Part shown: positions 1,663 through 62,259 of the stretch, piece after piece
How positions within the stretch are numbered: the stretch's first letter is position 1
Layout of the letters: each line of letters starts with the position of its first letter
Assembly (NCBI GenBank): GCA_022478985.1
Contig: JAKSZP010014532.1
Span: forward strand, 152,753 to 216,752
From: Massospora cicadina
Taxonomy: Eukaryota > Entomophthoromycota > Entomophthoromycetes > Entomophthorales > Entomophthoraceae
DNA length: 64,000 nt
Reading direction: 5' to 3'
Notes under the pieces: model-generated
Databases searched by the model: none
The model's input: the letters and a program-made list of their open reading frames with translations, nothing else
Told to the model about the DNA's origin: nothing
Made by a program: the position numbers and the translations under genes

Positions 1663-3556
1663 AATTTACAATTTATTTGAGGTACGCCAACCAGGGGATG
1701 GACAGTACTGAATCACAACACCCAAAATGACAAAATAAAACTACTAACCAAGTGGGAAGTGGAAACTGCTAACCCACCACGGCAGAGGGTGAGGAGGGGT
1801 TGGGGGTTGGTTTTCAGAAAGACCTGCCTCAATCATGGGATGTTGGTTACAGTGCCAGACCAGAGCAGAGAGCCAGGGCGTTGGGGCATCCGCATAGTGG
1901 GGGTGGAGGTCAGCGTAGTAAGAGTTTTCCACTTCCTCATCAAGATAATGATAGGAGAGTGATTCAACAAAAGCTGCAAGGAGAATTTCTGCTTCTTTGC
2001 AGGCTTCAGGAAGTTGGGTGAAAAGGGAGATACTGTGGTGGGTGATTTTGGCTGAGGGGTTTAATGAAGCAAGCGTTGCAACATTCATAATAGCAACTTC
2101 AGCATCATCAAATAGTTTTGAGATGTCACTGCAGGGAGATTCAGGGAAGTCAGGGGGAAGAAGAGGGTGGGCAGGCCATGCTGGAGCTGAGCCACTGACT
2201 GGGCCACCGCAGTGCGTAGTTTTGGGCACTGAGGAGAGGCCATTGCAGCTAAGGTGAGCTGGTGGTCACTTTGAAAGGGGGCTGTATTGGGCAGAGGAGC
2301 GAAATGGCGAGGGGTAGGGGTTTCATCAAAGTTGGGAAGGAAAAATTCTGCCTGACCATAATCAAGTTGGCAGAGAGGTTGACCTGTATGCTTACTAATG
2401 AGGACATTACCTGATTTGTCATTCTCAGCCAATATATCCCATGGATTTTGGTTCACTGGAATAGTGGCGTTCAAATTTGGGTGGGTGGGATTAGGTGAAT
2501 GGGCAGCTGCTTGGGTGCCAATGGTGGTCCAAGCATTGCTCTGATTGGCTGGGTGGATCTAGGTGGGAGAGTGAGGCTAGAGGTTTTGGGGGGCTGATTT
2601 TCCATGTGGGCCCACTGAATGATATTGGAGGGTGGGGAGGGGGCAGCAAAGAGCCCCATACTGAACCTCCAGAGGGGGCTCAGAAGCTGCAGCAGCAGAC
2701 TTGGCCTGAGGGCACGCTTTTTTGAATGGTCAAGGCCAAAGCAGAGGGAACAAATCTGCCTACCATTATCAACCCAAGCCCAAAAGAAATGATCAGGCGC
2801 TGCAGCCACACTAGTGCAGGGTGGGATTTGTTGGGCTATAATAGGGTGGTGTGGGATGATGGTGGCTGTTGCATGAGGAGCAGCAAGGCGCTCCACACCA
2901 GATGGAATAGCAAAGATGAGGTTGGGCTGAGTGCCATAAGCCATGAGCCCCGCAACCAACTGGGCATACAAAACCTGGGGTGGAAGGTGGGATGGGAGAT
3001 TTGCAAAGGATACCACCAGCATGGTGTCTGAAGGGAGGTGAGTATGGGTTGTGGGAATGGGTTTTTTTTATAAATTAGAGGAGTTTGTGCTGCCACTTCA
3101 GCATCCTCCTCATATTGGAACCCAACGTCAAAGTAGCCCTTAAAAGGGCGGAAGTCTATAAAGCCAGCTGGCACAAAGGCCGCAGTGGCTAGATCAATAA
3201 TTGCCTTATCAGCATATGGGAACAAATGCCCATAGTCCACTCTGAGGCAATAGCAAATGGTGGAGTGAGGGAGGGCGAGAGGATGGGGGTGAGAAGGGTG
3301 GACGCGCGCCAGGTGGAGCACTAAGTCCTGTGGGGGGACAAAATGGCTGGAAGCAGTGGGTGGGCTGTTTGAGCCCATCTGAACGCACTTTCGCGCGGGG
3401 CGGAAAATGTTAGGCAGGGGTGCACCGCTGCCCCACACTGGGGTGGCAGGCAGCGGAGCCAAGACATCAAAGAATAGGTTTGGGCAGATGGCTGTGGATA
3501 AATAAAACTTAAAGTTAAAATTGCTCAAAAGTGACTTTGAGCAGTAAAAGAAACCT
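1663..3556 (-). mobile_element. 1.9-kb gag-only (HAL1-like) retroelement, copy 1
   Basis: This is a discrete 1894-bp insertion flanked by a perfect 17-bp direct repeat, TGTATAGGCTTACATAC, at 1646-1662 and 3557-3573. A duplication of that length is typical of target-primed LINE-type insertion and not of LTR elements, whose TSDs in this window are 5 bp. The element holds one gag-like reading frame and no reverse transcriptase. Its 3' end, read on the minus strand, finishes GGTTGGCGTACCTCAAATAAA, which is the same tail as the SINEs and the LINE at 15147. Copies 2-4 at 12156, 26540 and 53215 have the same size and ORF. It is best explained as a non-autonomous ORF1-only derivative moved by LINE machinery, analogous to mammalian HAL1. 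Confidence 0.85.
1744..3528 (-). pseudogene. Gag-like zinc-knuckle protein of the gag-only element (frameshifted)
   Basis: About 595 codons are readable, broken by at least three frame changes (near 3060, 2472 and 2085-2229). The N-terminal third has a conserved core containing LFPYADKAIIDLATAA, then PAGFIDFRPFKGYFDVGF. The middle carries a zinc-knuckle-like segment, ICSLCFGLDHSKK, whose last Cys is lost here; copy 3 keeps C-x2-C-x4-H-x4-C. Further on are NPWDIL and SDHQL motifs that recur in copy 2. No protease, RT or endonuclease signature occurs. It probably encoded an RNA-binding ORF1/Gag protein. The exact family is not recognised, and conservation of motifs between copies is the main evidence that it was coding. 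Confidence 0.75.
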
Positions 3557-3573
3557 TGTATAGGCTTACATAC

Positions 3574-5010
3574 TAAAATAACATTTTGGTAATAAATAAA
3601 AGAAAACCATAAGCATTTATTTGTTAAAACTCAATGTATCTATTTAATAAAAAGTATGTATTGTACAGTATTTAATTATTTTTTTTAAAAATTGTTTGTA
3701 TTTAAAAAAGTAGAAACTTATATATTGAAAACTTCATGGGTCTTGAAAAATTAATAAATGGAGATTTTTGATATATAGAAGTTCAATATACAGAGGTCCT
3801 GCTTTATATAAATAGATATCATAGATAGATTGTGGTATTACCTGGTATTGCTAGATAGATAAACAAATAATTTGAAATAAAATTTTAAATTATATATCAT
3901 AGATAAACTAACAAACTTCTTAAATAAAACAATCAAACATAAAAATCAGCTAATTACTAACTGCTTGGTAAACCTAAATTAAACTTACTAAAACAACCAA
4001 AAACTACCAACAACTAATTAAAACAAAATAATCTTATCAAATCAGCCAATCACTAATCACTTACTAAAACCATCAAGCTTAGTAATCAACTTAAAAACCA
4101 CCAACTGCTTGGCAAAACCATCTAAACTAATAAATTAACTAAATATGTAACTGCCTAACCATAATGTTACAAAATACCATTAAGATATATAAAAATTTTA
4201 CCTTTTACATAAAACTTTCTATTTACTATTATAAAACAATTGTACTAATCCAAAACATTTGTGGGCATGCACACAACAGCTCACCAAAGTTTCATTATGA
4301 CTGTATTAAGTAGTATAGGAATGCATATGTTTCAAACAATGGATCAGATAAAGAAACATTCATTTTTACTTGCTTTCCTTTAAATCACAATCTTGTTTGT
4401 TCTGGAATCTTGGGACAAATATACCACACCTAGAATTTTTCTAGCTAGTACAGGTTTCGAACTTGAAACCTTGTCCTGGAATCTTACATCCTTCATTTAA
4501 CACACTTCCTGGCATAACCTGTTGAAATTTCATAGTTACTAAGGTTGGATGACAATACAATATTCCATTAATTTTTATTTTAATAGTAAAAGAAAAAGTT
4601 TTATATGTATAAAGTGATAATTTTATGTTACTCATGGTAAATGGTATATTGTTACAGCTAAGAAGTATGATAGTTAATTCAATAGGTTAAATGGTTTCGC
4701 CAAGTGGTTGATAGTCATTTCGCTAATTATTAAAGTAATTATTTTGATAAGTAGCAAGTGATTGTCTGATTTGATAGTTTAAATGGGGTTATCAAGCGGT
4801 GGGTGGTTTTAGGTTGATTCAATAGGTCCAATTAGTTTTTGGTGAATATTTAATAGTTTTTAGTTTTTGGTGAATAGTTAATAGTTTTTTATTTAAGATT
4901 TTTCAACTTTAAGAATATTTACAATGGTAAAGGTGTAAGCTGACAAAATATTAGAAAAGCAAGGCTAAAAGGCCCAGAATATATTTATGTTCTCTAAATT
5001 ATTATATATA
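3574..5010. other. AT-rich filler with minisatellite-like repeats
   Basis: No gene is visible. Positions 3935-4160 hold plus-strand units of the ~47-bp repeat (ACCAACTGCTTGG, AAACCATCTAAACTAA). Positions 4670-4900 hold the same repeat in reverse complement (GTTTTTGGTGAATA, CAATAGGTTAAATGGTTT). Positions 4405-4470 carry a short dispersed repeat listed separately. Confidence 0.55.
4405..4472. repeat. Short dispersed repeat with a tRNA-like B-box
   Basis: GGGACAAATATACCACAC, then a T-rich stretch, TAGC and GTACAGGTTTCGAAC, recurs at 14222-14281. The GGTTTCGAACTTG part resembles an RNA polymerase III B box, so it could be a remnant of a second SINE family. No A box was identified. Confidence 0.4.
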
Positions 5011-5030
5011 AGAAAATAATATTTAATAAG

Positions 5031-5577
5031 GGAGGATACCCCAGTGGTAGAGTATGGACCCTCTACCACTGCCTCCCGAGTTCGATCCCGATAATGGACT
5101 TTGGGTAGGGGACGATTTTGACTGTGTTGGTTTTGCGCGCCAATGCCCCGAACCGAGATAGCGAATAGCAAAGGCGGTCCATGGAGTTCCTGGCCTATCA
5201 TACGCCGCGCATGCCGCGCATGGGGGTTTTCCGGGTTTTATCCTCCTTTCCCATTTTCTTCACTTCCCCTCATCGGTGCGGTACCGTCCCCAGGTCGGCC
5301 CACCTCGAATAAAATTTAAAATTTAAAATAAGATTTAATGCCTCCCCGAGTTCGATCCCGGTAGTGAACTTTGGGTAGGGGACGATTATGACTGTGTTGG
5401 CGTTGCGCACCAATGCCCCGAACCGAGATAGCGAATAGCAAAGGCGGTCCATGGAGTTCCTGGCCTATCATACGCCGCGCATGGAGGTTTTCCGGGTTTT
5501 ATCCTCCTTTCCCATTTTCTTCACTTCCCCTCATCGGTGCGGTATCGTCCCCAGGTCGGCCCACCTCGAATAAAATT
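5031..5577 (+). mobile_element. tRNA-derived SINE, dimeric insertion
   Basis: The first unit (about 5031-5324) has a tRNA-like head, a ~200-bp body and the tail CCACCTCGAATAAAA. The second unit (about 5340-5577) is the same sequence lacking the first ~40 bp of the head. The pair is bounded by AGAAAATAATATTTAA at 5011-5026 and AGAAAATAAGATTTAA at 5578-5593, a 16-bp TSD with one mismatch; AAAATAAGATTTAA occurs again between the units at 5325-5338. It keeps CpG sites (GCCGCGCATG) that are lost in the other copies, so it is probably the youngest. It is noncoding; mobilisation by the LINE at 15147 is inferred from the shared tail. Confidence 0.85.
5037..5090 (+). promoter_or_regulatory. RNA polymerase III A and B boxes of the SINE
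   Basis: TACCCCAGTGGTAG (5037-5050) matches a tRNA D-arm A box and GAGTTCGATCCCG (5078-5090) matches the T-arm B box. The ~40-bp spacing is tRNA-like. GTGGTAGAG at about 5044 and CTCTACCAC at about 5061 can also pair as a hairpin. The second unit of the dimer keeps only the B box. Confidence 0.75.
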
Positions 5578-5593
5578 AGAAAATAAGATTTAA

Positions 5594-7315
5594 ACATATG
5601 TGCTAACTTAACTTGTAGCAAATAGCAATAAAGGTAATTCGTTTAATTTAACTTAGTTTAATAAGAGTACTTAGTTTATTTATTATTTATACAATCAAAT
5701 TGAATTAATCTATAATAAATTCTACTTATAGAGCTTTTGAAATAAAAAAATAAACAAGTTATTTATATAAATTTAATGAAGTAAAAGAATTAATTAAAAT
5801 GAGTTAAATATATAAATTGAATGAAATAAATTAATTAAATTAGATGATAAAAAAGTTTGAGCTGGGAATCAAACCTGCAACTCTATCTTAATTTTAACCT
5901 TAAGATTAACCATTAATTGTTTATTGTTTATGGTTAGTTTTTAGGTAAGAAATTTGGTAAATAAATCAATTTATTTAATGATCCTCAACCACTTAGGTAA
6001 AAAGTTAAACCAATCAGATCAATGGGATCATACATACATACACACATAATTTTCAATTTTATATATTAATTATAGATAGATTGTGATATTACCTGACATT
6101 GCTCAGGTTTAATAAACAAATGTTTCAAATTGAGTATTTTTAAGATTTTATATCATAGATAAACCACTAAACTGCTTAGGTAAAGCCATTAAACACACCA
6201 AAATTAACCAATCACCAACTGCTTGGTAAACCTCAGCTAAACTTATCAAAACAATCAAAATCCACCAATAACTTACTAAAACCGATTACCTATTGAAAAA
6301 CCAATCACTAACCACTTACTTAAACCATCAAGCTTATTAATCAACCTAAAACCACCAGCTGCTTGGCAAACCAATTAAAAATATTGAATCAGCCAAATAT
6401 CAGATTTCTCAGCCAATAACAATATACTGTCTACCATTAAAAATATAGGATTTTTACTTTTCACATCTAAAACCTTTTATTTTACTATGAATTTTCAAAA
6501 ATCCTTTCTTAGTGCTCACCTACATTATATAAAGAACCCATGTGCAAAATTTCATGCTTCTAGACCCACCAGTTTAGGCTGTGCGTTGTCTGTCAGTCAG
6601 TTAGTGTTAGAGTATTATTAAGTAGAATAAAAATTTTATAAATCAAAGGTGGTCAATTGTGAGTCTAGTCTATCACTGGATAAACTTAATTCTGACATAG
6701 ACAAATCTGTAGCTTTGAATCAACTTTTTATATTAAGATTTATTAAAAGTTTGGGACCATCTAATACTAAAAAAAGATTTATTAAAAGTTTATGATGGTC
6801 AATTGTGAGTCTAGTTTATCACCAGTTAAACTTCCTTGACATTGGCAAGTTGGTAGCTTCAAAGCAACTTTTTTTTATTTAAATTTTTAGAGTCAATGAT
6901 GGTTGATTATGAATCTAAACTTTGTTAGATAAATATCGATAGGTTTAAAGTAATTAAACCCATCAACTTAACAAAGTAAACATAAAACTGTATAGTAAAA
7001 CCATTGAATCTGTCAAAACAACTAAAAATTACCAACGACTCAACTAAACTAATTGAACCCATTGCATCAGCCAATCACCAAATGTATACAGAAACCAGTG
7101 AGCCTATTGAAATGACCAAATAACTGCCAACTGCTTATCAAAACCAATGAACCTAATGAATTGATAATTACTATCTGCTTACTCAAAATTATTGAGCCTA
7201 TCAAATTTCAAATAACAACAAAATCACACAACCAAAATGATATAAATATTGCCCTTAACCTTTAGATATCATTGATAAATTCTATTTATAACTTTTAATT
7301 ATCTTTTATAATTAA
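5594..7315. other. AT-rich filler with ~47-bp repeat arrays
   Basis: No gene is visible. Repeat units occupy about 6180-6420 and 6940-7215. On the minus strand at about 5853-5882 GTTGCAGGTTTGATTCC resembles a tRNA T-arm/B box; without an A box or cloverleaf I do not call a tRNA. Confidence 0.5.
6940..7215 (+). repeat. Degenerate ~47-bp minisatellite-like array
   Basis: Consecutive units start near 7033, 7079, 7125 and 7172. Each has the form ACCAACTGCTTA...AAACCAATGAACCTA...ATTGA, spaced 46-48 bp. Related arrays lie at about 400-870, 3935-4160, 6180-6420 and 11955-12145 on the plus strand, and in reverse complement at 4670-4900, 10540-11260 and 14920-15060. Confidence 0.55.
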
Positions 7316-9060: not shown

Positions 9061-10435
9061 TGTAAGTCCCAGGGAATGTCCCTTGGCTCTTGATTGGGCC
9101 ATTTTCCCATTCCCAAATAAAAGACACCAAAGAGGATGGTGGTACCCCTCATTACTCAGGGCAATCTTGCTCATGTAGTAGACGAGTGATGGGTAACAGC
9201 TCTTCCACTTCAGATCCCACCCCCAGCACCCACACTGACCTCAGCAGAACTGTTGTGGGGAATTAGAAAAATCTGTGCTGAGATTGTCAAATTGAAATTG
9301 GTCAGATCTAATTTGAGTGGCAATATGGCCAATGCCCAAATCTCAAATGGCTGGAAAAGCATAAAGACTGAGGTATCAGACAGAACGCCTGACAGTTCCA
9401 ATTTGATCAATAAGCCAATAGAACTAACATTGGGTGTCATCAACAAGGGTTTGAAGCCCTCTGTTGGCAATTTGGGCATTGCAGCTGATGTGATGCCATT
9501 GACCAAATGGATGGTTCAGCAACTGAGCGTGGGCGGGTTGGGCGTCCTGAACCCAATCCCAACCAAATGGACCCACCCCTATGTGGGGTGGCCTTGGGGA
9601 TTCCCATCGCTCGTTGGGCTAAAGGCTATCATGCCAACCATTGGAAACGTAGCCAAGCCCCAGTTTGGACATTTGAGGTCGAACTGACAGCGACTCAGCC
9701 CACCACTGAATTTTGCAATGTCAGTTTTCAAGGAACAAACCTGCCCACTCTCAAACAATTTGCCAGTTAGGTCAAAATTGTGGGACTGATCCCATCTTGT
9801 CACTACCCCAATCAACCACTATTTAATCAGTTGCATAGCACTAAGAAAATTGTTGGTTGATTTTCTTTTTCTTTTCCTTTAATAAAACTTTACCAAAAAA
9901 CTAAAAAACAAATTTTATTATTTCTTCTGACTGCATCCCTGATAGCATTTCCATGATGGCCTGTCAGCCCATATATCAGATGGGCTCTACCAGTACTCTT
10001 GGTCACTATGGCCCCCTCCATCATCAATTAGGTCCAGCAAGTCCATTATTTTTGGCTCTACAACCCCATGATCACTAACTTCCAGCAGCAATACATGGGG
10101 ATCTTGTGGCCATATGTCCACCAATTGCAAGAGAGAATTTGTCTCCTTGCCACCCCAGTTGAGATGGCACCATATACCAAGGATCCTATTGAGACTATCT
10201 CAGTGATTCTACCCCTGCAGCAAGACCCCCTGGGTTGGAAGTAGGTTCAGTGTGATTTTTCATCTGGGATCATTCTCACCATGTTGTTGCACCAACGTTT
10301 TGTCATTTCCCAATGCCCATCTTCATAACAAGTCATCTAGTCAGCAATGCCTCTGGCATTCTGGCTTGCTTTTTGGGTGCTTATGCATCCCAACTGTCAA
10401 GTTGGTCTAAACTTCTTCTGCCATTTCTATATTAA
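9061..10435 (+). repeat. Solo LTR, B-type chromovirus family
   Basis: It starts TGTAAGTCC like the B LTRs and is flanked by the 5-bp duplication ATGGC (9056-9060 and 10436-10440). The intact MITE confirms the target site. It carries the family signature: TATTTAAT at 9820-9827, 32 nt before GTTGGTTGA at 9852, then AATAAA. The 3' terminus (TATTAA) has lost the expected CA. At 1375 bp it is longer than the B LTRs (about 1.11 kb). Confidence 0.75.
9121..9770 (+). pseudogene. U3-encoded ORF of B-type LTR (pol C-terminal extension)
   Basis: The frame reads PLITQGNLAHVVDE, then IPPPAPTLTSAELL, and continues openly as 144 codons from 9253 to 9687, with GVLNPIPTKWTHPYVGW near its end. The same protein pattern is found in U3 of B (31660-32404) and F (61430-62120), with LITQGDLAHVVDKSW and GILNPF.TNW..PYLG. 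No known domain is recognised. In the intact B element this frame is continuous with the polyprotein end, so it is read as a C-terminal extension of pol that lies in the LTR. The run between 9140 and 9253 is interrupted by at least one stop. Confidence 0.55.
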
Positions 10436-10510: not shown

Positions 10511-12140
10511 TGAAGGTGATTATTTTTTACATTTTTTGTTAATTCACTATGTTCAATTGGTTTTGGCTGAGTGGTTGATGGTTTTATATTGATTTGATAG
10601 AATTTGATTTCTTATTTTTATTGATGGTCATCTACCAATAGATAATAGATTAGGATTACCTGATAAAACTTTAGACCACAAAAAGCTCTGGGTAAATCTG
10701 GGTATTAACAAAAATTAAGCAAAAGATTTCTTTACAAAGATATCATTGTGTCTATGCATCTATTTAGGGTGTATTTTCTCATGAAGAAATAAAACAAAAA
10801 ACAAACATGGCATAAGTACTTTATAAAGTTTGAGAATGGTAATAAACTATTTTATAATAAAAACATAGCTTTTTAATATCAGTTCTATATAAGATCAGAA
10901 AATAGATGCTTCTAATGGTATTATCAATTCAATATGTGCTTTAATATTCATTTAATTTGAATAGTTTCATAGGTTTTGATAAGTGGCTGGTAGTTTTTGG
11001 TTGTTTTATAAGTTCAACAATTAATTTTAGCTAATTGAATTTAATTTTCATTTGATTTGCTAAGCTCAATAGTTTAAAATGGTAGATGGTTTAGTTAAAG
11101 CTATATTTTTAATTGGTTTCGGGTGAGTGGTTGATATTTTTTAGTTAATATGATAGTTCAGTTGGTTTTGGCTAAATAGTTACTGATCTATATTGTTTTA
11201 TAGTTTTTAATTAAAGTTGGCCAAGTGGTTGTTAGTTGGATAACGCAATAGGTTTAAAGGGTTAACTTATTATTGGCCATCTACCAATGGCAACTAAAAC
11301 GATCTATTATAATAATCTGGTAAATATAAACTTAAGCAAAGCTGGGTTACTTGGCTAGTCTCAGATAAAATTTAAAGCCTAGGTATGTTTAAGCTATTAA
11401 ATTGCTGTTATAGATTACTTAGATCCTCAGTTGCAGTGGCTTAGCTAAATTTTTAAACTGTATTATCAGAGGATATAAATCAACAAACTTTTGTCATCTA
11501 AATCTGATAATTTGTTTCTTGGCTAAGTCTTACTTAGATTATTATAGATTTGTTGCTTATTTAATTGATATTTTGTAAAGTATATATTGGCTCATGTGTC
11601 TCTTTACATATATTTGGTTATCCATTATATGCAAAATTAAGTATTAAATTTAAAATTAAAACAATAGAAGGGAATATAAAACTAAAAAATTATTTATTTC
11701 TACTTTCTTTATTTAATACAATAATGCTTTAACCGGTTATAAGGTTTTTCCTGTTACTTTTAAGCTATGACTCAATCATTTACTTAAAAACACTTTATAA
11801 AGTTACTAGCTCTAAACCTGTTCTATGCCTGGGTGTTAAACATTTTTATTAATAAATGGATTACCCAACGTTGCTTAATTTTATATTTACCTAACATTTT
11901 AATTAACTTTAGCTCTTATTTTGGTAGGTGAGATACCGATCAATAAGTCTAGGAAGTAATTACTCTATTTTATCAATTAGTTAACCACCAACAGCTTTAA
12001 AAATCACAATAGATCTATTTAATCGACCAACCAAATACCAAGTGATTGGCAAAATCAATTAAATCTATTTAATTACTTACATATCATCTACTTAAATAAA
12101 AAAATTAAATCTATTGAATAACCTAAAAACACTAACTACT
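10511..12140. other. AT-rich filler with reverse-strand ~47-bp repeat
   Basis: No gene is visible. About 10540-11260 contains units such as CAATTGGTTTTGGCTGAGTG and GTGGTTGATGG, the reverse complement of the array at 6940. Forward units reappear at 11955-12145. Confidence 0.55.
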
Positions 12141-12155
12141 TGCCACATTATATTG

Positions 12156-14038
12156 AGTTATCTAAGCCAAACTGACCAGGGGATGGAAGTACTGAGTGCT
12201 CAAGGAGTGCAATTAAAATCTATAACAAACTGAAACACCCATATAGGCATCTTAAATCAAAATAAACAAAAAACACAAACCATGTGGGAAAGTAGTTAAC
12301 TAATATTAAACTATGGTGGAGAAGGAGGGGGACTAGGAGGAAGCTTAGTACTTAACCCTATGCCACATCTGACTCTGACAAAGGCAGAAGGAAAAGGCAT
12401 GGGGGCATCCACAGAATGAGGTGCATGATGTGAAAAGGGAGGGTTAAATTAGCAAACTTGGCCATGCTGAGGGCCTCAAAATAATTAGTGAGGCGTTGCT
12501 TAGCAGTCATTCAGATTTTGGGAAGACAAGCCATACTTGTGGCATTTGTAGGTGTGTTACAGTTGGAATTAATTGTCATTTAAAAAATCAAAACTACAAT
12601 AGCATGTAAGCTTAGTGCAACATCATGAAGAATAAATTTGGTGACATGTGGAAATCCAGGGGAGATTTGGCCTTGAGAAAACCAGAACCCAACATGTCAA
12701 CTGATTTAAGGGTTGCCTTATGGAGGGGAATGTTTTCAGGGGAGGAAGCTGCAGCCATGGCGAGTTGATGGTCACTAAGGAATGGTTCAGCATTATGTTT
12801 AAACATATCACTTGGGGTTATTCTGAGCATCAAAGTTAAATTCAAAAATTTGACTAAAGTCAATTTTTTTGGGTGAGAACAGGATGATTTTACCCAATGT
12901 ATTAACCTCATACAATAAATCCCATGGATTCTGGTTAATTTTAATAGGGGCATTGGTGAAAAGTTGGGAATGGGCAAGAAAATGGGATGGTTCTTGGATG
13001 GCAACAGTAGTCCAATCCTGATCCTGATTGTCTGAACTCAATGCAGGGGTTTGAGTGTGGTAGGAGTTATGGATGGAAGGTAAATATCGTGCTGACATCT
13101 GGACAATCTGGCTGAGTGCATAGTGGCAGCAAAACACCCCATTATAGTAATTTCAATGAATTACCAGAAATGGGGTCAGGAGTGTTAGATACATTGGTTT
13201 GGGGACAAAAATTTATACAGATCTATCTCAAAACATAGAGGACAAATTTGTTGATCATATTGACATGAGCCAAAAGAAATAACCTGACTTTGCAGCAATG
13301 TGTGCCCGCAGGGGATCTGTTGGCAATGCTGGGGTGATGAGGGGTGATGGTGGCAATGGTATGAGGGGCAGCAAGGCGCTCTGCACCAGAGTTAACAGCA
13401 AAGTAGAGTCAAGGGTGAGCGCTATAGGCAGAAAGACTAATATTAACTCATCAAACAAAAGTTGGGATGGGAGTTGAAAAGGGAGATTTGAAAATGACAC
13501 TATCATTATTGTGTCAATGGAAAATCAAGTATGATTGATGGAAATAGGAGTGTGTTTATAAATTAAAGGAGGTTATTCATCATAGAAGTGTCCTTCACAG
13601 TTGGAAACCTATATTAAAATAGCCCTTATGAGGGAAGAAGTCAATAAAGCTCAATGGCATAAAGGCAGCAGTGAAAAGCTCAATAATTGCATTGTCAGCA
13701 TATAGAAATAGTCATCCATAGTCAACACTCAGGAAAAAGTGAATGTTGGATTATGGTAGGGCACATGGGGGATAAGATAGATGAAGGCGTGTGATTCTGA
13801 GCGCGAAATCCTTTAGTAGAACAAAGTGACCATAGTGTTGGGCAGACATTTTGTTCCCATATGCATGCATATAACTGCAGGGCAGAAAATTCTAGGTAGT
13901 GGAGCGCCATTGCTCATACTGAAGCAACAGGCAGTGGAGCCAATGACATGAGTGGTAAGTGGTTGGCAATTAAAGGTGGTAAAATAGGCTGTTTATCTCA
14001 AAATTTCCTGATAAGTTGTCAGGCAGAAAGAGCTTTTT
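12156..14038 (-). mobile_element. Gag-only retroelement, copy 2
   Basis: This 1883-bp insertion is flanked by TGCCACATTATATTG (12141-12155) and TGTCACATTATATTG (14039-14053), a 15-bp TSD with one mismatch. The minus-strand ORF remnants at 12612-13910 match copy 1: SDHQLAMAAASSPE parallels SDHQLTLAAMASPQ, INQNPWDLL parallels VNQNPWDIL, and LPFQLPSQLLFDELI parallels LPSHLPPQVLYAQLV. The tail is decayed beyond CCATCCCCTGGTCAG. It is more mutated than copy 1, and its zinc-knuckle region is hard to trace. Confidence 0.8.
12612..13910 (-). pseudogene. Gag-like ORF of copy 2 (fragmented)
   Basis: Four open segments (13910-13722, 13506-13255, 13137-12808 and 13004-12612) in different frames follow the order of the copy 1 protein. 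The N-terminal core (FPYAD...FKGYF) is heavily disrupted near 13600-13720. No enzymatic motif is present. Confidence 0.6.
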
Positions 14039-14214
14039 TGTCACATTATATTGTAATTTAAGTATATAAAACAGATATACTATTATATAAGGACTCAGTA
14101 AAGTACTTCAGCTAACGCTTTAAGTGTTTAGTTGAATTGATAGGGTTTTTTGCAAAGCAGCTCAATCTTATTCATAATATTTGATTATAGGTATTTAAAA
14201 TTAATTGAGGTGGG

Positions 14215-14569: not shown

Positions 14570-14843
14570 TGAGGAAAGTGCTCAGTGGTAGAATATGGAC
14601 TCAATGACCACTGCATCCTGAGTCAATTCTGGTAGTTAAACTTTAAATAAGGCACAATAATAACTATGGCAGTGTTGCGCACCAATGCTCTAAAAATAAG
14701 ATAGTAGATAGCAAGGCGGTCCGTGGAGTTCCTAGCCTATCAGAATGCTGCATATGGAGGTTTACCTAGAATTTATACTACTTTCCTATTTCCTCATTAA
14801 TTAATGTGGTGTACGTCTTCAGGTCAGCACACCTCAAGTAAAA
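14570..14843 (+). mobile_element. SINE copy, decayed
   Basis: The head CTCAGTGGTAGAATATGG and GAGTCAATTCTGG (decayed A and B boxes) is followed by a body with TGTTGCGCACCAATGC and GGCGGTCCGTGGAGTTCC. The 3' tail is CACCTCAAGTAAAA. A TSD is not clear. CpG loss relative to the 5031 copy suggests greater age. Confidence 0.75.
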
Positions 14844-15138
14844 ATGGTTAAAATAATATGTTCTTTGGTTTTTCTAAGCATTATAGTTACTATTAGAATA
14901 ATCAAATTAGGTATAATGACCTTGAGATGCAGTTTGATGGTTATTTGGTTTATTTTATAGGATCAATGGTTTTGCTAGGTGATTTGGTTATTATTTAGTT
15001 AACAAAAGGAGCAATAGTTTTCCTAAGTGGTTCAGTGGGCATCCAGCTTGTATTATCTAAGAGTTAAAAAATTCATATTTAAAATTAATGGGACTAAATG
15101 ATATTCCAAGCAAAGCCGCTGATTGTAGCTAGTCTTAT
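14844..15138. other. AT-rich spacer with repeat remnants
   Basis: Reverse-strand ~47-bp repeat remnants (GGTTTTGCTAGGTGATTTGG, CCTAAGTGGTTCAG) lie at about 14920-15060. No gene is visible. Confidence 0.45.
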
Positions 15139-15198
15139 TATATTTGTTTATTTGAGGTAGGAGGACCATGGGAGAAACTCTACTAAAAAGAAAGTATT

Positions 15199-15482
15199 TT
15201 TTATTCTATTCAAGGTGGGCTGACCTGAGGAGAATACTGCACCAATTAAAGGTATCCAATGTATGGGAAAGAAGGCTAAAACCCAGAAAACCTCCATGTG
15301 CAGTGTATGATAGGCCAGTAACTCCATGGACTGCCTTTGCTATTTGCTATCTTAGTTTGGGGCATTGATGAGCAACGCCAACCCAGTCATAATTGTCCCC
15401 TACCCAAAGTTCTTGTACCATAATTGAACTTGATGAGGCAGTGGTAGAGGGTCCATGTTCTACCACTGGGGTATCCTCTCAT
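15199..15482 (-). mobile_element. SINE copy, minus orientation, with TSD
   Basis: This copy is flanked by TACTAAAAAGAAAGTA at 15181-15196 and 15483-15498, a perfect 16-bp TSD. Read on the minus strand it begins with AGGATACCCCAGTGGTAG and ends near ACCTTGAATAG. It is inserted into the 3' end of the LINE, so it post-dates that LINE copy. Confidence 0.85.
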
Positions 15483-15599
15483 TACTAAAAAGAAAGTAAT
15501 TAAAATAAAAGAAAGGCTGAAAATTTCTAGGAGCCCTTACAACTCAGCAAAATTTTTTATCCAACTCCGTCCTTGTTTTCAGGGTGAGGTGGTAGAAAT

Positions 15600-17880
15600 A
15601 ATGGAGAGACTTAAGTGTCTTGAAAGGATATCCAGAGAATAAAGGTGTGGGAGTATGTGTCTATCTCCAGGAACCAGCTAGTTTCAATGATTGTATTTGG
15701 AAGAGCCATTTAAAACCCTGATCCCAAAGAACCAAATTTTGGAAGTTGCGTGTAAGATGGCAATGTTTTTGACTGAGCATTTTCATCATAGTGAGAGACG
15801 CCTTATTGATAGCTTCCAGGATGGAAGATTGGATCGCCCATAATGTCATGGATGCAATTAGTGCTCTAAGGGTTTCTGAGAAATTTGTGAAATCACTTGT
15901 ATGGCAAATGTATCATGAGTAAATTAAAAGTAGTAATTTCAAAAATTGAACCAGATATGATATTTCTATACAAATGACATTGGATGTGGGGCAGCCCTCT
16001 ACCCAATGTATTAAAGTATTATGTACGCTGCATATTGGTCAATGGTTGACAATTACATTGGACCTATCTGCTGTGCAATATTTTTATAAGGATTTTTTCA
16101 AAAAAATGGGATTTTGTTTTATGTGTAATAAAGAATGATGAGTATTTACTCACATCTTCTTTTGATCTTTTGGGGAGTAAGGAGTATCCAAAGAATCTAT
16201 TAGGTCAATCCTTGCTAGAGTTTTTGGAAACTTTGGGGTGGAAGGGTTAGGATTTATTGGTACATCATCAAATAGTTGAAAAGTATCTTGTATCTGCCCT
16301 ACAATGATTTGGTTTCAGGTCAATTATTTTAAAATCTCAGTTGGAATGTTTGTTAATATTTAGCGTGCCTTTACATGAGGATGGGCACAATAGGGGTCAG
16401 ATGCATTGGGGGATATGATAGGTATCTTAATAAAGTACTGGGTGCATTAGGATTCACCAGAACTTATACTCTTTCTAAACTGCCTCTTGCTGTCTTAGAC
16501 CAATGTAAGGCTTGAGGGTTAGAATTAATCACTTAGACAATCTATTTTCTCAATATATATGGATTAATTGTTGGTGGAAATTGAGGAGTCCCACGCCTCC
16601 AAAGGTTTATTGAATAAAAGAGTTTTTCAATACTGATATGTGCCTTTATGCCATAATAAAACCATGATTGTAATATATCTCTTAGTGAGTTAAAGAAGGT
16701 GGTATATGGTATGGCATTTTCGGTGTACCATTTTATTGTCATTATCAAAGTATCAGGTAATAAACTTTCCCTACAAGCCCTGTTGAGCGTCATGAATGAT
16801 AGCTACTTTATTTGAGATGCTGATAATAACTTTTATCCCTATAACTGTAGATGTTATCCTCCATAATTCAGCCATCCATCTAAACGTAAGATGGTTTGGG
16901 TAGAGGGGTATCTCTGAATGTTATGATTAACCTCATAATTGATGTTGGCGAGAAGTTCCAATATGTTATTGATGCTAATGCTTGCCAAGTAGTAGAAGCT
17001 CAGTCTTGTGTCAATTAATTTTGGCATTACTTACTTGTTTGCTTAAATTAAAGTATTTTCAAGTTGTGGGTATTTATTGTATTGGAAAACCACTACCACG
17101 CAGTCATCTACAAATGAAACATTTTGTAGGCTTTTGCCCTAAGAGGCAATGCTTTCCAGTTCTAATATATGACTCACAGTACTGGATTCAGCTCTAATTT
17201 GTAAAGCAATGGCATTAGGGGTCGCCCTGTTTCAAACTGCGCTGTGGGAGAATAGAGTATAAACAAATTCTTTTCAAGGATAGCCATTGTTAATGACTCA
17301 GTTGAAAGCATATACAGTTGTAAATTGAGTTAGTAGGTGTAAAGTTTCAAAGTTGCCTAATGTACTTCCAATGAACGCTATCATATGCCCTTTTTGGTCT
17401 AAAAGTATCAGCGTACATCTGACTTAGTGGCACATGCTGGCAACGGTGTAATGCTGTTTGATTGATGCAATTGGGGACAAATTAATATTTGTTTCTTGAT
17501 ATGGAAGTTTCAGCAATTTTACTCATCCACTTTTTGATAGTATGTTAGAAATTTTTTTGAGTCTGCCTTGGTGAGTGATATAGGGCGCTAACTATCCAAG
17601 TCAATTGGATCACCTTTTTGAATAAGAGTACAACAAAGGCTTCTTATCCTTCAGGCAGTAAGCATGTATCTAAAAGCAATTATAGATGGACACTTTGAGT
17701 AGAGGTACAATTAAATTAAAGTGTATCATGTAGAAATGCTAGGCACTGCATCTGGGACAGGGCTTTTTAGTGGGGTGCCCAGCATACAGAATCCTATAGC
17801 ATTTTGTAAGAAAACATTAACTAGACTGATTATGTTATTAGGAGTTTACATTTTAATTTAACTAAGATTTCTGATAACTT
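15600..17880 (-). pseudogene. LINE reverse transcriptase (inactivated)
   Basis: RT motifs appear in order on the minus strand, with stops and frame changes between them. LIQKGDPIDLDS and RPISLTKAD (about 17560-17640) match the LINE fingers motif KKGDP..NYRPISL. RAYDSVHWKYI (about 17350-17400) matches the FDSV..W box. FVDDCVVVV (about 17080-17115) is the F/Y-A/V-DD catalytic box. GGVGLLNFHQQ (about 16590-16620) is the typical GGLGL motif after the thumb. The order and spacing exclude an LTR-type RT. The frame is broken in many places, so it is inactive. The clade was not assigned. Confidence 0.75.
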
Positions 17881-19026: not shown

Positions 19027-19917
19027 TGTCAAGAGAGTGTCTGTAACTCTCTCGTTCCCAGCAAGATGATGTGGGATGCAAACCCATATTGCTAGGGAAC
19101 TAGCTGTTAGAAGAATGGGAAGACAAGCACCTCGAGCAGTGCCAGTGCAAAAGGTACCCCAGGCAAGTGTATAAATAGCAACATAAAATACCAGTTAAGT
19201 AAGAAACAACATCGCTTGAGTGGACCCTAAAGGGGCGTCCATAATAAAGTGTGGCTTGATGTCAGGGGCTTTGGGTGCCTCAATCTGGAGGGGACCTGGG
19301 CGGCCCACAGGTGCTTTGGGATTTTGGTAAATTGTGAGATAAGGTAGTGGTCCACATGGTTGGAGACCTCCCTGAAGAGGTCCACCACCAAGTTTGCCCA
19401 AGGAACCATTAGGAAAACGTAAAATAATGGGGGGTTTTTATTAAGCAAGTCGATCAACAAGGAGTGTTGATCACAAAAACCTATTTAAAATGAATTGGGG
19501 AAATTTGGGTTCTGCGGAAATGCACCCAAGCCATGATGCTCCAATAAACAGACGCTTCTGTCAGTTTTGGTAAAATACACCAAAAGTGCCTTCACTTGAG
19601 TAATCGATTGAAGCCTTATTTTACCTGAAGTCAAAATCTCATAGCTGGAGCAGGACTAAACCCTTGCTCTCCAACCAAGCTAACTGAACCATCATTATTC
19701 AAAATGTAAATTGTTCATTTTAGGGTCTGAGCTGAAATAAGAGGCTGGGCGTTTTGCACCCCATTAGTATCAACCTGGGCTTGCTTGGCTTGCACCCAGC
19801 GTTGATCTAAGGTGTGCTACAAGTCAGGAAGAGCCTGAAGCTTCATCTTCTGGGCCTCCTGTCGCCCAGCCTTATCCCTAGCATCAGTGCCTACTATCAT
19901 GTCATCCAACCATGACA
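19027..19917 (-). repeat. Solo LTR, C2 subfamily
   Basis: The perfect 5-bp TSD GATAC lies at 19022-19026 and 19918-19922, inside the pol of element A. Minus-strand ends are TGTCATGG and ...TTGACA. U3 encodes SWLDDMIVGTDARDK and QEAQKMKLQALPDL, with the DGS-type segment seen in element C; R/U5 encodes GRPGPLQIEAPKAPD and MDAPLGSTQAM. The same subfamily occurs at 47249-48141 on the plus strand. Confidence 0.85.
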
Positions 19918-19922
19918 GATAC

Positions 19923-21286: not shown

Positions 21287-21412
21287 TGTTGGACATTTCA
21301 ATATATGTTCAATAGTGGAAAATATTTGAGCATCGTCCCTACACTAGATTACCTCTCAAAAACTACCTTAGGGGAAAACTAAATATCTAACAATTTTAAT
21401 ATAAAAAAATTA

Positions 21413-21710
21413 AGGGGAGGATACCCAAGTGGTAGAGTAGGGTCCTCTACCGCTGCCTCCCCAAGTTCAATTCCAGTACTGGAACTTTGGGTAAGGGACA
21501 ATTATTACTGTGTTGGCGTTGTGCACCAATGCCCTGAACCAAGATAGCAAATAGCAAAGGAAGTCCATGGAGTTCCTGGCCTATCATACGTTGCATGTGG
21601 AGGTTTGTCAGATTTTATCCTCCTTTCCCATTCATTTGATTTCCCTTAATTGGTGCAGTATTATCCCCAGGTTGGCCCACCTCAAATAAAAATAAAAATA
21701 TAAAAAATTA
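21413..21710 (+). mobile_element. SINE copy in D 5' LTR, plus strand
   Basis: The head GGATACCCAAGTGGTAGAGT and B box AAGTTCAATTCC lead to the tail AGGTTGGCCCACCTCAAATAAAA. The flanking ATATAAAAAAATTA (21399-21412) and ATATAAAAAATTA (21698-21710) form a 13-14 bp TSD. It is nearly full length. Confidence 0.8.
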
Positions 21711-21719
21711 TTATTACTA

Positions 21720-21952
21720 ATTTGAGGTGTGTTGACCTTGGGATGATACTGCATTAACAATGGGGAAATAGAAATGAAATCAATAGAAAGAAAGATAAGG
21801 TCTGGTAACTTCCATGCTCAGTGTTCTGATAAGCCAGATTTTCCATGGACTGCCTTGCTAGCCACTATCTTAGTTCAGGGCATTGGTATGCAACGCCAAC
21901 AAAGTCAAAATCATCTCTAATTTCATCTACTGCGATTGAACTTGGGAGGCAG
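21720..21952 (-). mobile_element. 5'-truncated SINE, inverted neighbour
   Basis: It starts at the tail (TTTGAGGTGTGTTGACC on the plus strand) and ends at the B-box region (ATTGAACTTGGGAGGCAG), so the A-box part is missing. With the plus copy next to it the transcript of D's LTR would contain a long inverted repeat. A TSD is not clear. Confidence 0.75.
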
Positions 21953-22835
21953 TTTTTATAAATAATTTATATACTAAAATTATTAGGAAATAACTTTGGC
22001 TAAAATTAGCCCCTTTTATAGGCTTTAAAATTTATAACAAGTGAAAATATCATACTTTGCCTGATTGGCTAATCCTTTTTAATTTGCAAAACTAAAATAA
22101 TTATGCTTTCAGCTACCTCACCTCATATTTTCTAGATCTTGAGTTTTTGCAAGATGTATTTAATTCATTTACTGTTAATTGATTATAGCTGACTGAGTTA
22201 TGAAGAAGCACTATTCTCATTTGGAATCTGAATGGCTTTGAAATATATTAGATTTATCTTAAACATATGCGACAATCCAAACCTCAAGAACATGCTTTCA
22301 ATATACAAAATCCAATAAATATCTAATTAATCTGATTGTAATTTTATTGCTGAATTTAACGGATTTACACTAATTAATAATAAAAAAGCAGTAATCTGAA
22401 AGATGATTATCAAAATTAAATTATTACAACGCTAACTAATTATTGCAATGTTGGAAGATATCAAAATTCTGTCTGTCTCCACATGTACCTTTTCGTTAAC
22501 AAATTAAAATAAAAATCCTTTTAGACATATTAGTATCTCGTGATCATAGTTTTGATCCTGAGATAAATCCTAGAATGTTATTATTATTAAATGGATATAT
22601 AAACCCCTATTATCATTAAATAAAGATAGTTTTTTAATCCATATATACTTTAGTTATTTTTATATAATAAAGCTCTTCATTCTAACTAAAAGTTAGGCTT
22701 ATGAACTTAGAAGGACAATTTTGAACTCCTCTCTCTTAGAAATATGTGAAATTTTAAGCAATTCACGCCTACCATGATGTGGGAGTTCTGAGTTAGCACC
22801 CAGCGAGACACCCAACAAGCTAGAATTCCTACAAT

Positions 22836-26539: not shown

Positions 26540-28433
26540 CTTTCTTTTGCTTTGATCAACTAAATTGAAGCCAAATTTTAAGCTTTAAAGTAAACAAAAA
26601 ATATCCAATTGAATCTAGTAATTTAAGCAAAATGTTGATGCCATCGATGCCTGCTTCCCTGGCTTGGTGTGGTGGTATGCCGCCCTCTGGAGTCCTTTGG
26701 CCACTACTGAAGCGCATCTGGGCTGGCTCTGATAGCCCTCCCAATGCCACCGGGCGTTATGTCCCACCCTGGGACTTAGCCCACCTTCTTGCATGCACAT
26801 GGGCGGTGCTCCAGAGCCCTTTGGTGCACCCTCAGAGCAACCTGCATTTTGGCCTCCAGGTCAGATATGAGAATCTTTTCCCATATGTGAGTGCAGCCAT
26901 CGTCAAGATGTCCATGGCAGTTTCTGAACCCACTGGGTATATCAATTTTTGCCCGTTCAAGGGCTATTTTGACCTCAGATTTTAGTCTGAGGCCAATTGT
27001 GGCAGCATCTAAGCTACCAAATATGTTTAAAATTATTCCTATCCCCACTGTTCATACATGGCTTTTAGATGAGGCCTCTTTGGTGGTCCAGTTTGCCAGG
27101 TTGCTCCACATCTTTCCCATGAACGCCTCCACCATGAGCTCACAGAGGGTTTGTTTATTTGTGGTGCAGACCCCATGATGCAGTTTGTGGTTCCAAATGG
27201 GGTGGATTGTTTAGTAGGGCCGTGCACCTTTTTAATGACCCACCCATTCCATCATGACACCTATCTCACGATTCCCCCTTCACATGGTGATCAGATCTGC
27301 CCCTGATCACCCATTCTAGGCACACGTTGAGAATGGCTGTGACATTTGCCCCTTGTGCTTTGAGCTTGATCACTCAAAGCAAAAGTGCCCTATGGCTTCC
27401 ACCTCCACCGCTTCCACTGCTCCCCCCCTCCAGCATCAGCTCAGCTGCTGCTGCACCCAATTTTTTTGAGTGAGGCTCAATTCTCCCACCCCCAATCTCA
27501 GCAATTTCTGGCATGGCTTCCAAAGCTGCGGTCAATCAAAATTTGAATTTTTTTTAAAAATTTGGTCAAAGTATGACATCCTGAGCTAATGGCTGAAACA
27601 GTTTCATCTGAGCTGCCAGGGTTGACAGTTTGTGGCCAATAAGGTGTGACCAACTTGCCAACTCCAGTGGATGGGCTGGTGTTAGCCTGGTTAAATCCTT
27701 TTGAATGTCTTGATTGGATTGATAAATTGACTAATTGTATAATGTTGAAGCAGATTTTGCATTGGAGTTTTTCATTAATCCTCCCAAATCACGCTCCCAC
27801 CATTTTTTGTCCCAAAAAGATTATCTCATCTATGCAATATTAATAGAATGGCAGTTGAAGACGCTGCAGCTCCTGACAATACCCTCCTCCACCAACAACT
27901 CCATGGGACGATGGAACCCCTTGTTGAGGTTATACCCATCCCAAATTTCCCTCATGATCTTGAAGAGGATGCAAAATATGAAATTGAGGAGCTTGCTTTT
28001 GGTGCAAGCCACACTTGCATTGACACAGAAAAAACCTCTCTCTTCAACCCCAATTATCTAAAACCTGCTGGCACATCAAGTCATTTACTTGTGTGCCTGC
28101 TCTCATCAATTTTGCTGCGCATCAAATTGCTCAATATTTTGAGGCGATGGACACTGCCGCTTCATTACCAAAGAAAACCCACAATATACCTCCTTATGCC
28201 ACATGTTACTGATGCTCCCACCCTGATTCTGTCTGTCATGGTCCGCCAGCTAAAGTGGGCACTGGATAAAAGTTTCCTCAAAGCTTCCTCCCCTTCTGAT
28301 ATGGCTTCCTAGGCTATTAGCTGATTTGCCATAATAGAAAACATTTTTTATTCGAATAATCCCTTTATTTTCCCATTTGCGAATAAAGATGAATGGCGGC
28401 TCCCCCTTTTGGGTTAGGCACCATTAGTATTAA
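26540..28433 (+). mobile_element. Gag-only retroelement, copy 3
   Basis: This 1894-bp insertion has the same length as copy 1. It is flanked by TACAGATGAAGG at 26528-26539 and 28438-28449, extended to about 16 bp by ATGG with one indel. Its 3' end is TTGGGTTAGGCACCATTAGTATTAAA-like, a decayed version of the shared tail. It sits in D's 3' LTR and so is younger than D. Confidence 0.85.
26629..28312 (+). pseudogene. Gag-like ORF of copy 3, with intact zinc knuckle
   Basis: The protein starts with MLMPSMPASLAWCGG at an ATG. Then come RYVPPWDLAHLLACTW, the core LQVRYENLFPYVSAAIV, PTGYINFCPFKGYFDLRF and, at about 27340-27395, CPLCFELDHSKQKC, a complete C-x2-C-x4-H-x4-C knuckle. The C-terminal segment (27848-28312) includes HQQLHGTMEPLVEVIP and lies in the region matching copy 1's end. 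Stops and frameshifts near 26980, 27300 and 27480 break it. It shows best what the ancestral protein looked like. Confidence 0.75.
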
Positions 28434-32407: not shown

Positions 32408-32604
32408 TTACCCTTTCCTTTTGCCAAAGGAGGGGCACCTCCAGTGGGAACCTGCATAAGGGCTACATTTTTGTGCGCCTTGGGCAACTTGATCGCCATC
32501 AACGCTGCAACTTTTTTGGGTGGGGATGGGGAGCATCGGGATGGGACACATGAAATGCCTTGGCCAGTTCCATGCAGTTTGAACAATTGCGGGCCTTGAC
32601 CCAA
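31660..32604 (-). pseudogene. Polyprotein end of B extending through U3
   Basis: An open stretch of 221 codons (32604-31939) starts upstream of the LTR (KLPKAHKNVALMQVPTGGAP), crosses the LTR boundary at 32407 (GKGNVSPGERPL) and continues with LITQGDLAHVVDKSW, then IPPPVFALTSAKLV. After a stop it goes on as SSPTWGGPGEF...DAIMLTDINAV. Element C has an equivalent junction (LAPAHKNFSLAQAPG, then MSWLNDMIVGT in its LTR). No known domain is recognised. Presence in U3 of B, F and the solo LTR at 9061 argues it is a real conserved extension. Confidence 0.6.
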
Positions 32605-53214: not shown

Positions 53215-55135
53215 ACCAAGGTAAGCTGACCAGAAGATGGACATTAACGATGCTTATATGAGAAAAAACTTAAAATTAAAATAAAATAAAGTTAAAATGA
53301 GACAGATGGATCAACTTGAACTGACGCAAAGTTCAAATAAAACACACCAACCAAGTTGGAAGCATGAACCGCTATCCATCCATGGCATTGGGTGAAGGGG
53401 AATCAGGATGTTCTTCTTCCTCATTTGTTGTGGGCATGTAGAGACACAAAACTGATAGCAATGATGTGGGCGCATCATGAAAATGGGGATAAATTTAACA
53501 AATGGGTTCTTGCAACTCAATGTTTGCAATGAGAAGGGTGGAAATATAGTATAAAAGTGCTTTTTCCTCTTCAATTCGTACTTTAGGTAGGGTGGCGATG
53601 GTTGCAAGGTTATTGCGGGTAATGCGGGTCTTTGGGCCAAACTTTGTGACTGCCACAACTTTTTGAACTGTTACATCTGCCACCTGATAGTATCAGAGAT
53701 GGTATTTTTTCTGTTTTGGAAGCATGGTACTAGTAATATAGGAGGTGGCAGGCCCATAGCCAGTACTGCAACTGATTTTATAACAGCTTTATAGGTTGAG
53801 CGACATTTGGGGGAGGCAAATGCCTCTTCAGCTAGTTGGTGGTCAAATTTAAATGGGGTGGCATCAGGGCGAAGCGCATAATGGCGCCTTGGGAATTGGT
53901 CCGATAATCAGTAATTAGATACATTTTTAATGGATGGGCCACAGCCCATTCAGATTCAGGGATAAGCTCATTCGATTCACCAACCTCAACCAAATAATCC
54001 CATGGACTTTGGTTGAATTTGAATAGGTTGTTTGCATATAGGTTATCTGTTGCATTTGGCTGAGAGGATAGTCTAGGGCTTACTTTAGTTCATTCTGGCT
54101 CCTGATTGGTGGTCTCAGGAGAAGAGGTTCGTTGAGGTAATTTTTGTTTTGTTTATTCAGTGGTTGCTGTGGCTACCACTTTGGAAGGAGGGGGGAGGAT
54201 ACTGTCCCACTCAAAAAATGTTATCGTATCAGCTATGAGGGTCATTATGCATAGAGTCAGGTGTGGACGCCATGGCTCATGAGATGGAGGGGCAGCACTG
54301 TTTTAAATGGTCCAGTTCAAAACAGGTAGGGAAAATGGTTCACCCTCCATCACTCAATCCCAAAAAGGATGGTCTGGCGCAGAGGGGATAATGGTGCGAG
54401 GGGGATTGAGAGGGCCATTTCCATTGATACTAGACAAATAGTCACAAAGATGTGGGGCCCTGCAAGGCAAGTGTCTGCATTAAGAACCACGAATTGTACA
54501 ATGGGATTTGAAACATATTTCAATAATACAGAAATAATTTCTTTAAAAATTTTTGGGTGGTAGGTGGGTAAGGAGGCCTACGAACTGAACCACAAGATTG
54601 GTGTCAGCGGGAAACTGGGAGCGAGTAGTTGGAAGGGGGTGCCCTGGAACACCAGGGGATGGTAGTTGCTACTGAAGCATCAGCTTCACTTGAGAAGCCA
54701 AGATAAAAATACCACTTGAAGGGGTGGAAGTTGATGAAGCCTGCAGGCTGCATAACAGCCTTGGCTAATTCAATAATTACTTTATCTGAATAGGGGAACA
54801 ACTTGCCATAATCAACCTGAAGGTTAAATCACATGTTGCTCTAGGGGAGCACAAGGGGGCAGCATGGCACCATCTGGGTTTGAGTGAGATGTAAGGCTAA
54901 GTCCTTAGGTTGCACATAGCGTGCTGGAGAATTCAGAGGGCTGCTAATCCAGTCTGAGCACGTTTGGAAAAAGCTGAAAAACATCAGGAGGTGGCGCACC
55001 GCTGCCCCATATGGGGCAGCAGGCATCAAACGCATTGACATAAGAAAATTGAATAGGACGATGATGAGTGGAGCTGTTTTTACTAAATTTTAAGTTATAA
55101 TTTGACCAAAAGTGAAAGAATAGAGTGAGTTCTGA
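53215..55135 (-). mobile_element. Gag-only retroelement, copy 4
   Basis: It splits E1's RNase H between QPFFLF and SNFAVMVILSQHD. The 3' end on the minus strand reads CTGGTCAGCTTACCTTGG, close to copy 1 (CTGGTTGGCGTACCTCAA). A degenerate target repeat TTTCTTTCTATTTA (53201-53214) and TTTATTTTTCTAATT (55136-55150) is likely. Length is about 1.92 kb, as in the other copies. Confidence 0.75.
53311..55041 (-). pseudogene. Gag-like ORF of copy 4
   Basis: It starts MSMRLMPAAPYGAAVRHLLM at an ATG near 55041. RYVQPKDLALHLTQTQM, the core LQVDYGKLFPYSDKVIIELA and PAGFINFHPFKWYFYLGF follow, and TCFELDHLKQCC (about 54290-54330) is a zinc knuckle in which the first Cys is lost. The same order as copies 1 and 3 supports one ancestral protein. 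Stops and frameshifts are frequent in the C-terminal half. Confidence 0.7.
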
Positions 55136-62257: not shown

Positions 62258-62259
62258 TC

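Follow-up and report, generated by a model that had tools for sequence, protein, structure and literature searches.

A window of 64,000 nucleotides from Massospora cicadina, the whole stretch of DNA analysed here, contains four sequences of about 1.9 kb that an earlier note, based on the letters alone, had described as one family of gag-only retroelements moving in trans. To our knowledge, ORF1-only parasites of LINEs are known mainly from mammals, and the locus raises the question of what these units are and by which machinery they might be moved. We consider it highly probable (roughly 87%) that the copies are half-LINEs, i.e. non-autonomous non-LTR elements of approx. 1.9 kb that encode LINE ORF1 only and were most likely mobilised in trans via a common 3' tail.

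Four ORF1-only copies in the window

The four copies were found where the earlier note had placed them and with the same lengths (Table 1). Each is colinear with P0003, a 587-aa ORF on a 1,857-bp contig that spans nearly the whole unit: copies 1-4 match residues 8-584, 14-581, 11-563 and 8-585, with alignment scores of 910, 455, 489 and 578 (the reverse strand scored 38 in copy 1 and 35 in copy 2), and the translated pieces match in identical order along all four. Full-length DNA identity among the copies is 47-58%, and their longest local match, between copies 1 and 2, covers 648 bp at 67%; because of this low identity they are regarded here as four old and different lineages rather than the single family initially proposed. 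In comparison with P0003, frameshifts are present in 4/4 copies (7, 12, 11 and 15 in copies 1-4) and stops in 3/4 (0, 6, 2 and 5). As the published assembly of M. cicadina MCPNR19 is largely Nanopore-based, according to the available part of its description (PMC9584336), some of the frameshifts may be sequencing errors.

Target-site duplications (TSDs) were scored against 3,000 random placements. Those claimed for copies 1-3 were confirmed, with 17/17 positions in copy 1, 16 bp with one mismatch in copy 2 and 18/17 bp with one indel in copy 3, each exceeding all 3,000 random placements, whereas the degenerate duplication ascribed to copy 4 was not detectable, the best match being 6 bp and equalled by 25% of the random placements. 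The true 3' end of copy 4 may lie slightly below position 53215. Much of the remaining window is occupied by diverged repeats that look Ty3-like by their ORFs (31298-33641, 36248-37359 and 60976-63377, and likewise 19027-21278, 40848-43450 and 45937-48141).

Table 1. Elements and 3' tails in the window, and tail B in related loci (positions of the latter are within the locus named; strand of the ORF1-only copies is that of coding)
Feature	Position	Strand	Remarks
ORF1-only element, copy 1	1663..3556	-	1,894 bp; member of the abundant subfamily; TSD 1646-1662 / 3557-3573
Tail A of copy 1	1671..1698	-	28.3 bits, rank 7; 0/20,000 random 60-mers as good
SINE	5022..5328	+	tail A 5287-5314
SINE, shorter 5' end	5339..5593	+	tail A 5548-5575
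ORF1-only element, copy 2	12156..14038	-	1,883 bp; TSD 12140-12155 / 14038-14053, one mismatch
SINE, diverged	14583..14859	+	tail A 14816-14843
Degraded LINE, probably 5'-truncated	15146..17827	-	tail A 15146-15173; SINE inside at 15195-15489
Tail A of window LINE	15146-15173	-	23.7 bits, rank 8; 0/20,000 random 60-mers as good
SINE, inserted in window LINE just before its tail	15195..15489	-	perfect 16-bp TSD
SINE	21411..21705	+	tail A 21664-21691
SINE facing 21411..21705	21716..21953	-	tail A 21716-21743
ORF1-only element, copy 3	26540..28433	+	1,894 bp; tail B; TSD 26522-26539 / 28433-28449, one indel
Tail B of copy 3	28364-28433		3' end of the copy
ORF1-only element, copy 4	53215..55135	-	1,921 bp; no detectable TSD
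Tail A of copy 4	53210-53237	-	17.2 bits, rank 9, little above the 16.3-bit match at 59868; 1.2% of random 60-mers as good
Tail B in L008	1809-1883		conserved 3' stretch
Tail B in L011	5457-5531		conserved 3' stretch
Tail B in L012	3070-3144		conserved 3' stretch

Encoded protein and signs of selection

The protein relatives found were P0003 and hypothetical proteins of Massospora cicadina only (four, then one more). The encoded protein consists of a core homologous to LINE ORF1, which ends in a CCHC knuckle, and a further part after it, for which no match was found in the LINE. By sequence homology, we classify it as a LINE-type ORF1 and not as an LTR-type Gag, which the term 'gag-like' had implied. 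The knuckle (CX2CX4HX4C) is complete in P0003 and in P0001, another Massospora protein, and among the window copies it is complete in one frame, by eye, in copy 3 only. The initial statement of one protein per copy and no reverse transcriptase (RT) holds. The RT of the LINE at locus L019, described below, matched none of 32 sequences at E 0.1 (0/32), these being the four window copies and 28 loci (L021 is copy 1), with flanks of 1.5 kb in 8 and of ~70 bp in 20.

Pfam returned no family above the cut-off for the ORF1-only protein, zf-CCHC_4 being seen in P0001 only and below the cut-off (E 0.26), and neither Pfam nor PDB gave a match to an RRM upstream of the knuckle. There were no PDB matches for P0003 and seven weak ones for the profile (E 0.16 or worse), none in PHROGs for two proteins, and viral contigs contained neither relatives of P0003 (two pattern matches, none confirmed) nor an exact tail. 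Type I LINE ORF1 proteins, with an RRM followed by CCHC, are reported from the I, Jockey, R1, Tad1, plant L1 and L2 clades (PMC4120745, in the part available); the Massospora protein resembles them in that a CCHC knuckle ends the conserved core; no RRM model matched it.

Differences between the copies decrease from codon position 3 to 1 to 2 in 6/6 copy pairs of the protein-guided alignment, the six pairs being drawn from four sequences and hence not independent. The same order was obtained in DNA-only alignments (p 8e-5 to 2e-9), with codon phases taken from the protein-guided alignment and same-phase sites only. The excess at position 3 may be taken as a sign of selection at the protein level. 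This bears on two further explanations. One is that the copies are retropseudogenes of a LINE ORF1 mRNA, which were moved passively and whose protein product plays no part; TSDs and a missing RT would be expected there too, but a single ORF that is colinear in four diverged window lineages and P0003, and in which codon position 3 changes most, makes this very improbable. The other, to which we give just as little credence, is a gene family that was domesticated or is effector-like and owes its spread to retroposition by chance, like the EKA genes of powdery mildew. The codon-position signature of selection is compatible with it, and in Blumeria, EKA proteins derived from LINE ORF1 have turned into effectors (PMC4641428, in the portion available); selection between lineages is, however, equally expected for the ORF1 of a mobile element, and the tail, TSDs and uniform ends described below fit such an element.

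An autonomous LINE with a homologous ORF1

The genome does contain a full-length LINE with a matching ORF1, as envisaged in the earlier note. It is a 5.3-kb element, two copies of which, on contigs C19 and C6, are 94% identical over 5,277 bp; one is flanked by an 18/18 TSD (AATAACTAATCACCCCTC) and the other by a 24/25 flank match running a few bases into the element start. Its RT was recognised by RVT_1 (E 4e-36), with zf-RVT below the cut-off (E 9e-5). Pfam found no endonuclease in the LINE piece tested, and motifs seen by eye are presumably those of an endonuclease. In L019 and L006, the RT is preceded by an ORF1 that matches residues 139-254 of P0003. Composition-corrected tblastn with P0003, run in a four-sequence database, gave E-values of 3e-5 (C19, minus), 2e-5 (C6) and 1e-7 (a second LINE, C19 plus), and hhalign aligned the profiles of ORF1-only and LINE ORF1 proteins (4 and 3 sequences, respectively) with a probability of 95.9% and E 5.2e-9, in an alignment of 119 columns that takes in the knuckle. 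The second LINE (L029, C19 10751-12625, plus) belongs to another subfamily with a homologous ORF1, faces the first one and carries, by eye, what we take to be endonuclease-like motifs. RT pieces of other LINE clades were seen in L009 (5119-7274) and L013 (1986-2795).

Within the homologous domain, ORF1-only proteins share 32-60% identity (90% for copy 1 vs P0001) and LINE ORF1s 47-92%, compared with 16-32% across the two groups. A tree of 9 sequences separates ORF1-only proteins from LINE ORF1s with a support of 1.0, although it is unrooted and a single origin is not proven by the split.

The window itself harbours a related LINE in degraded form; a SINE lies between its body and its tail, which we take to be parts of one element. 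A composite of it, with frames chosen by eye, was matched by RVT_1 (E 2.6e-12) and had R2 and LINE-1 proteins among eight PDB matches; the raw frames gave nothing in Pfam, and a protein search with the composite gave nothing at E 0.001. Because a choice of frames by eye favours a match, the comparison with the L019 RT was run independently, and it matched window positions 17827-17555 (E 3e-4) and 17655-16981 (E 2e-4).

Tail A and its carriers

A 28-nt tail matrix, trained on the six SINEs of the window, was applied to 127,946 positions. The training SINEs took ranks 1-6, followed by copy 1, the window LINE and copy 4 (ranks 7-9), with copy 2 at rank 14; ranks 10-13, at 16.3 bits or less, lay elsewhere and include the matches at 59868 (16.3 bits) and 14199. 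As a control, 20,000 random 60-mers were aligned with the SINE tail (Table 1). The tails of copies 2 and 4 are weak (for copy 2, 10.1 bits, reached by 2.4% of random 60-mers), the match in copy 3 is reached by 7%, and those at the four 5' ends, which served as a further control, are equalled by 22% or more.

In the copies of the copy-1 type that were examined (29/29), tail A has its highest score over the entire element at a distance of 8-9 nt from the 3' end, with 13.2-32.5 bits (median 28.3). For the LINE clade of L004, L006, L018 and L019, each locus (4/4) has a tail match of 17-18 bits, approximately 250-450 bases to the 3' side of where RT-protein similarity ends, in contrast to L009 and L013, with RT of other clades, where no tail match was found beyond the RT on the same strand. 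Typical tail letters are TCCCCAGGTCGGCCCACCTCGAATAAAA for the SINE, TCCCCTGGTCAGCGTACCTCGAATAAAT for the half-LINE and TCCCATGGTCAGCCTTCCCCACAATAAA for the LINE; without gaps, 23 of 28 letters are common to half-LINE and SINE, 19 to half-LINE and LINE, and 18 to SINE and LINE. This connection of the ORF1-only copies with a LINE and a SINE is absent from the earlier note. A stem may be drawn in the tail (CGG...CCG in the LINE and some SINEs, TGG...CCA in half-LINEs), for which no claim is made, because CpG decay would produce both changes.

Tail-A matches were also observed on other, unassigned sequence (L001 7657, L010 2853, L012 8572 and 9594, L014 9399, L022 4695 and 4861, and L024 1108), all of them above 13 bits and some above 20 bits (L001, L012, L014, L022 and L024). 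More copies of the SINE family are present in L005, L009, L018, L019, L023 and L028. Judging by eye from its promoter boxes, the SINE head may be tRNA-derived, but neither ARAGORN (0 tRNAs) nor Rfam (no tRNA) confirmed this. Weak Rfam miRNA matches at 21643-21764, below the gathering score, were rejected, as they are caused by two facing SINEs (inverted repeat 21453-21952).

Tail B

Copy 3 and three relatives end in a different conserved stretch, tail B (Table 1). Blastn aligned copy 3 with L011 at 85% over 62 bp, and an nhmmer model of these same four sequences gave E-values between 1e-19 and 7e-24. The end of tail B recurs in L003 at 4451-4498 and 9406-9452 and, more weakly, at 5777-5813; the two stronger places have 48 nt in common at 94%, behind unrelated sequence. 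No LINE with tail B was found among the loci examined. As a lead from sequence comparison, tail B points to a possible second partner LINE.

A discrete and abundant unit in the genome

With copy 1 as a DNA query, the 1.47-Gb genome (16,968 contigs) yielded 8,090 candidates, of which the best 40 were scored. Thirty-seven of the 40, the window's own copy included, start at base 1-9 of the 1,894-base query and end at 1876-1894, although full length is favoured among these places because only the best candidates were scored; of the other three, two are split and one reaches only to 1789. Apart from copy 1 itself, the places are 91-93% identical to copy 1. We examined 29 copies with their flanks, i.e. 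28 of the 40 scored places (L021-L028, L021 being copy 1, and L031-L050) and L016 from an unselected sample. TSD scores of 12 or more were obtained in 22/29 copies, with lengths of 12-21 bp, and scores below 12 in 7/29, while among 2,000 random placements two reached a score of 12 and none 14. Median pairwise identity of the 29 copies is 92.4% (406 pairs); all of them lack a full-length ORF, the longest open frame being 460 aa.

The least probable of the explanations weighed is that a longer RT-bearing LTR or LINE element left the copies as internal fragments or truncations, the case named in the earlier note as the one that would overturn its reading. It is favoured by the degradation of all window copies and the existence of LINEs with a homologous ORF1. 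For the copy-1 subfamily, from which most of the evidence against it comes, it was not borne out, given common ends in 37/40 places, unit-flanking TSDs in 22/29 copies, a tail close to the end (8-9 nt) in 29/29, no RT in 32/32 and a protein that shares only 16-32% identity with the LINE ORF1s examined.

Other classes were rejected. LTR retrotransposons leave a short TSD of fixed length, whereas the TSDs here are long (12-21 bp) and the protein is homologous to LINE ORF1; direct terminal repeats are also missing, with no second direct match within a copy at E 1e-3. A SINE is not compatible with a length of 1.9 kb and a conserved protein, and no tRNA-like 5' head was seen by eye.

Mismatches to the majority base of the 29 copies amount to 21% at CpG vs 3.2% outside CpG, and the observed/expected ratio of CpG is 0.14-0.34 in the window copies and 0.32 in the whole window. 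The copies are decayed at CpG, which points to CpG methylation. RIP was rejected: TpA/ApT of 0.51-0.71 and (CA+TG)/(AC+GT) of 1.6-2.1 in the copies are not RIP-like by what we take to be the customary thresholds.

An unselected sample of 20 stretches of 10 kb (200 kb), at the starts of contigs C1-C20, was searched by tblastn. Eleven clusters were obtained, among them a LINE ORF1 (L019:9082-9582) and a weak match in L015, which leaves 9 to 10 ORF1-only copies; an additional weak match in L018 appeared in a looser search only and is outside this count. By proportion, approximately 66,000-73,000 copies would be present genome-wide (the Poisson 95% range for 9 being 4 to 17), and the ORF1-only element makes up a visible share of this giant fungal genome. 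In a comparison of genomes (PMC10515909, in the text available), M. cicadina alone is noted to have an expansion of LINEs, and in the available parts of this paper and of the assembly description (PMC9584336) the ORF1-only element is not described.

Half-LINEs and their possible mobilisation

The comparison with HAL1 made in the earlier note gains support from the missing RT (0/32), the TSDs (22/29) and an ORF1 homologous to that of a LINE. HAL1 (half-L1) of mammals encodes ORF1p only and, according to the accessible part of PMC5753468, had several origins in mammalian evolution. Both are non-autonomous LINE derivatives with ORF1 only, but the present elements differ by their fungal host, a CCHC knuckle in ORF1 and a sequence-specific tail common to LINE and half-LINE, and, in contrast to the several origins of HAL1, for the fungal ORF1-only proteins a single strongly supported split from the LINE ORF1s seen was observed (unrooted). 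HAL1 proper, a mammalian L1 derivative, was rejected, as the host is a fungus and the elements end in tail A or tail B.

Among fungi, the EKA genes of Blumeria derive from LINE ORF1, and among nine Avrk1-like consensus sequences apparently none has both ORFs (both from the portion of PMC4641428 available). Together with the Satine and Kryze LINEs of the same fungus, they resemble the Massospora elements in being fungal, very numerous and derived from LINE ORF1; they differ in being regarded there as truncated copies of LINEs that were recruited to serve as effectors. The main text of that paper has 0 occurrences of 'target site' and of 'non-autonomous', and no common 3' tail was seen in the portion available. 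A 3' end that a SINE has in common with a LINE is linked with stringent template recognition, and 58 such SINEs are given in the available text of PMC3747384; the Massospora elements are similar to these pairs in combining a SINE and a LINE with similar tails, and differ by a third, protein-coding carrier of the tail. Half-LINEs as a kind are known, and, as far as searched, the fungal variant with a LINE-shared tail is new: no report of one was found in the literature, most subscription journals and the repeat databases being outside the search.

From the common tail we infer that half-LINEs would be moved in trans by the tail-sharing LINE. According to this scheme, which draws on sequence features for transcription, ORF1 function, tail recognition and the supply of enzymes in trans alike, the half-LINE would be transcribed, and its ORF1 protein would coat its own RNA. 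The endonuclease/reverse transcriptase of the autonomous LINE would recognise the common 3' tail, nick the target and prime reverse transcription there, leaving the 12-21-bp duplication; SINEs with tail A would be moved by the same LINE too. It appears to us an even chance that the ORF1-only elements represent an old entomophthoralean lineage, split from LINE ORF1, under selection for its protein and comprising at least four lineages, in which an exchange of tails (the copy-1 type having tail A and the copy-3 type tail B) would reflect a change of partner, more than one LINE having been exploited. With one and the same tail on a LINE, a SINE and a half-LINE that codes for a protein, such a fungal system would make it possible to separate two questions that tend to be treated as one, the role of ORF1 for its own RNA and the recruitment of enzymes by the tail.
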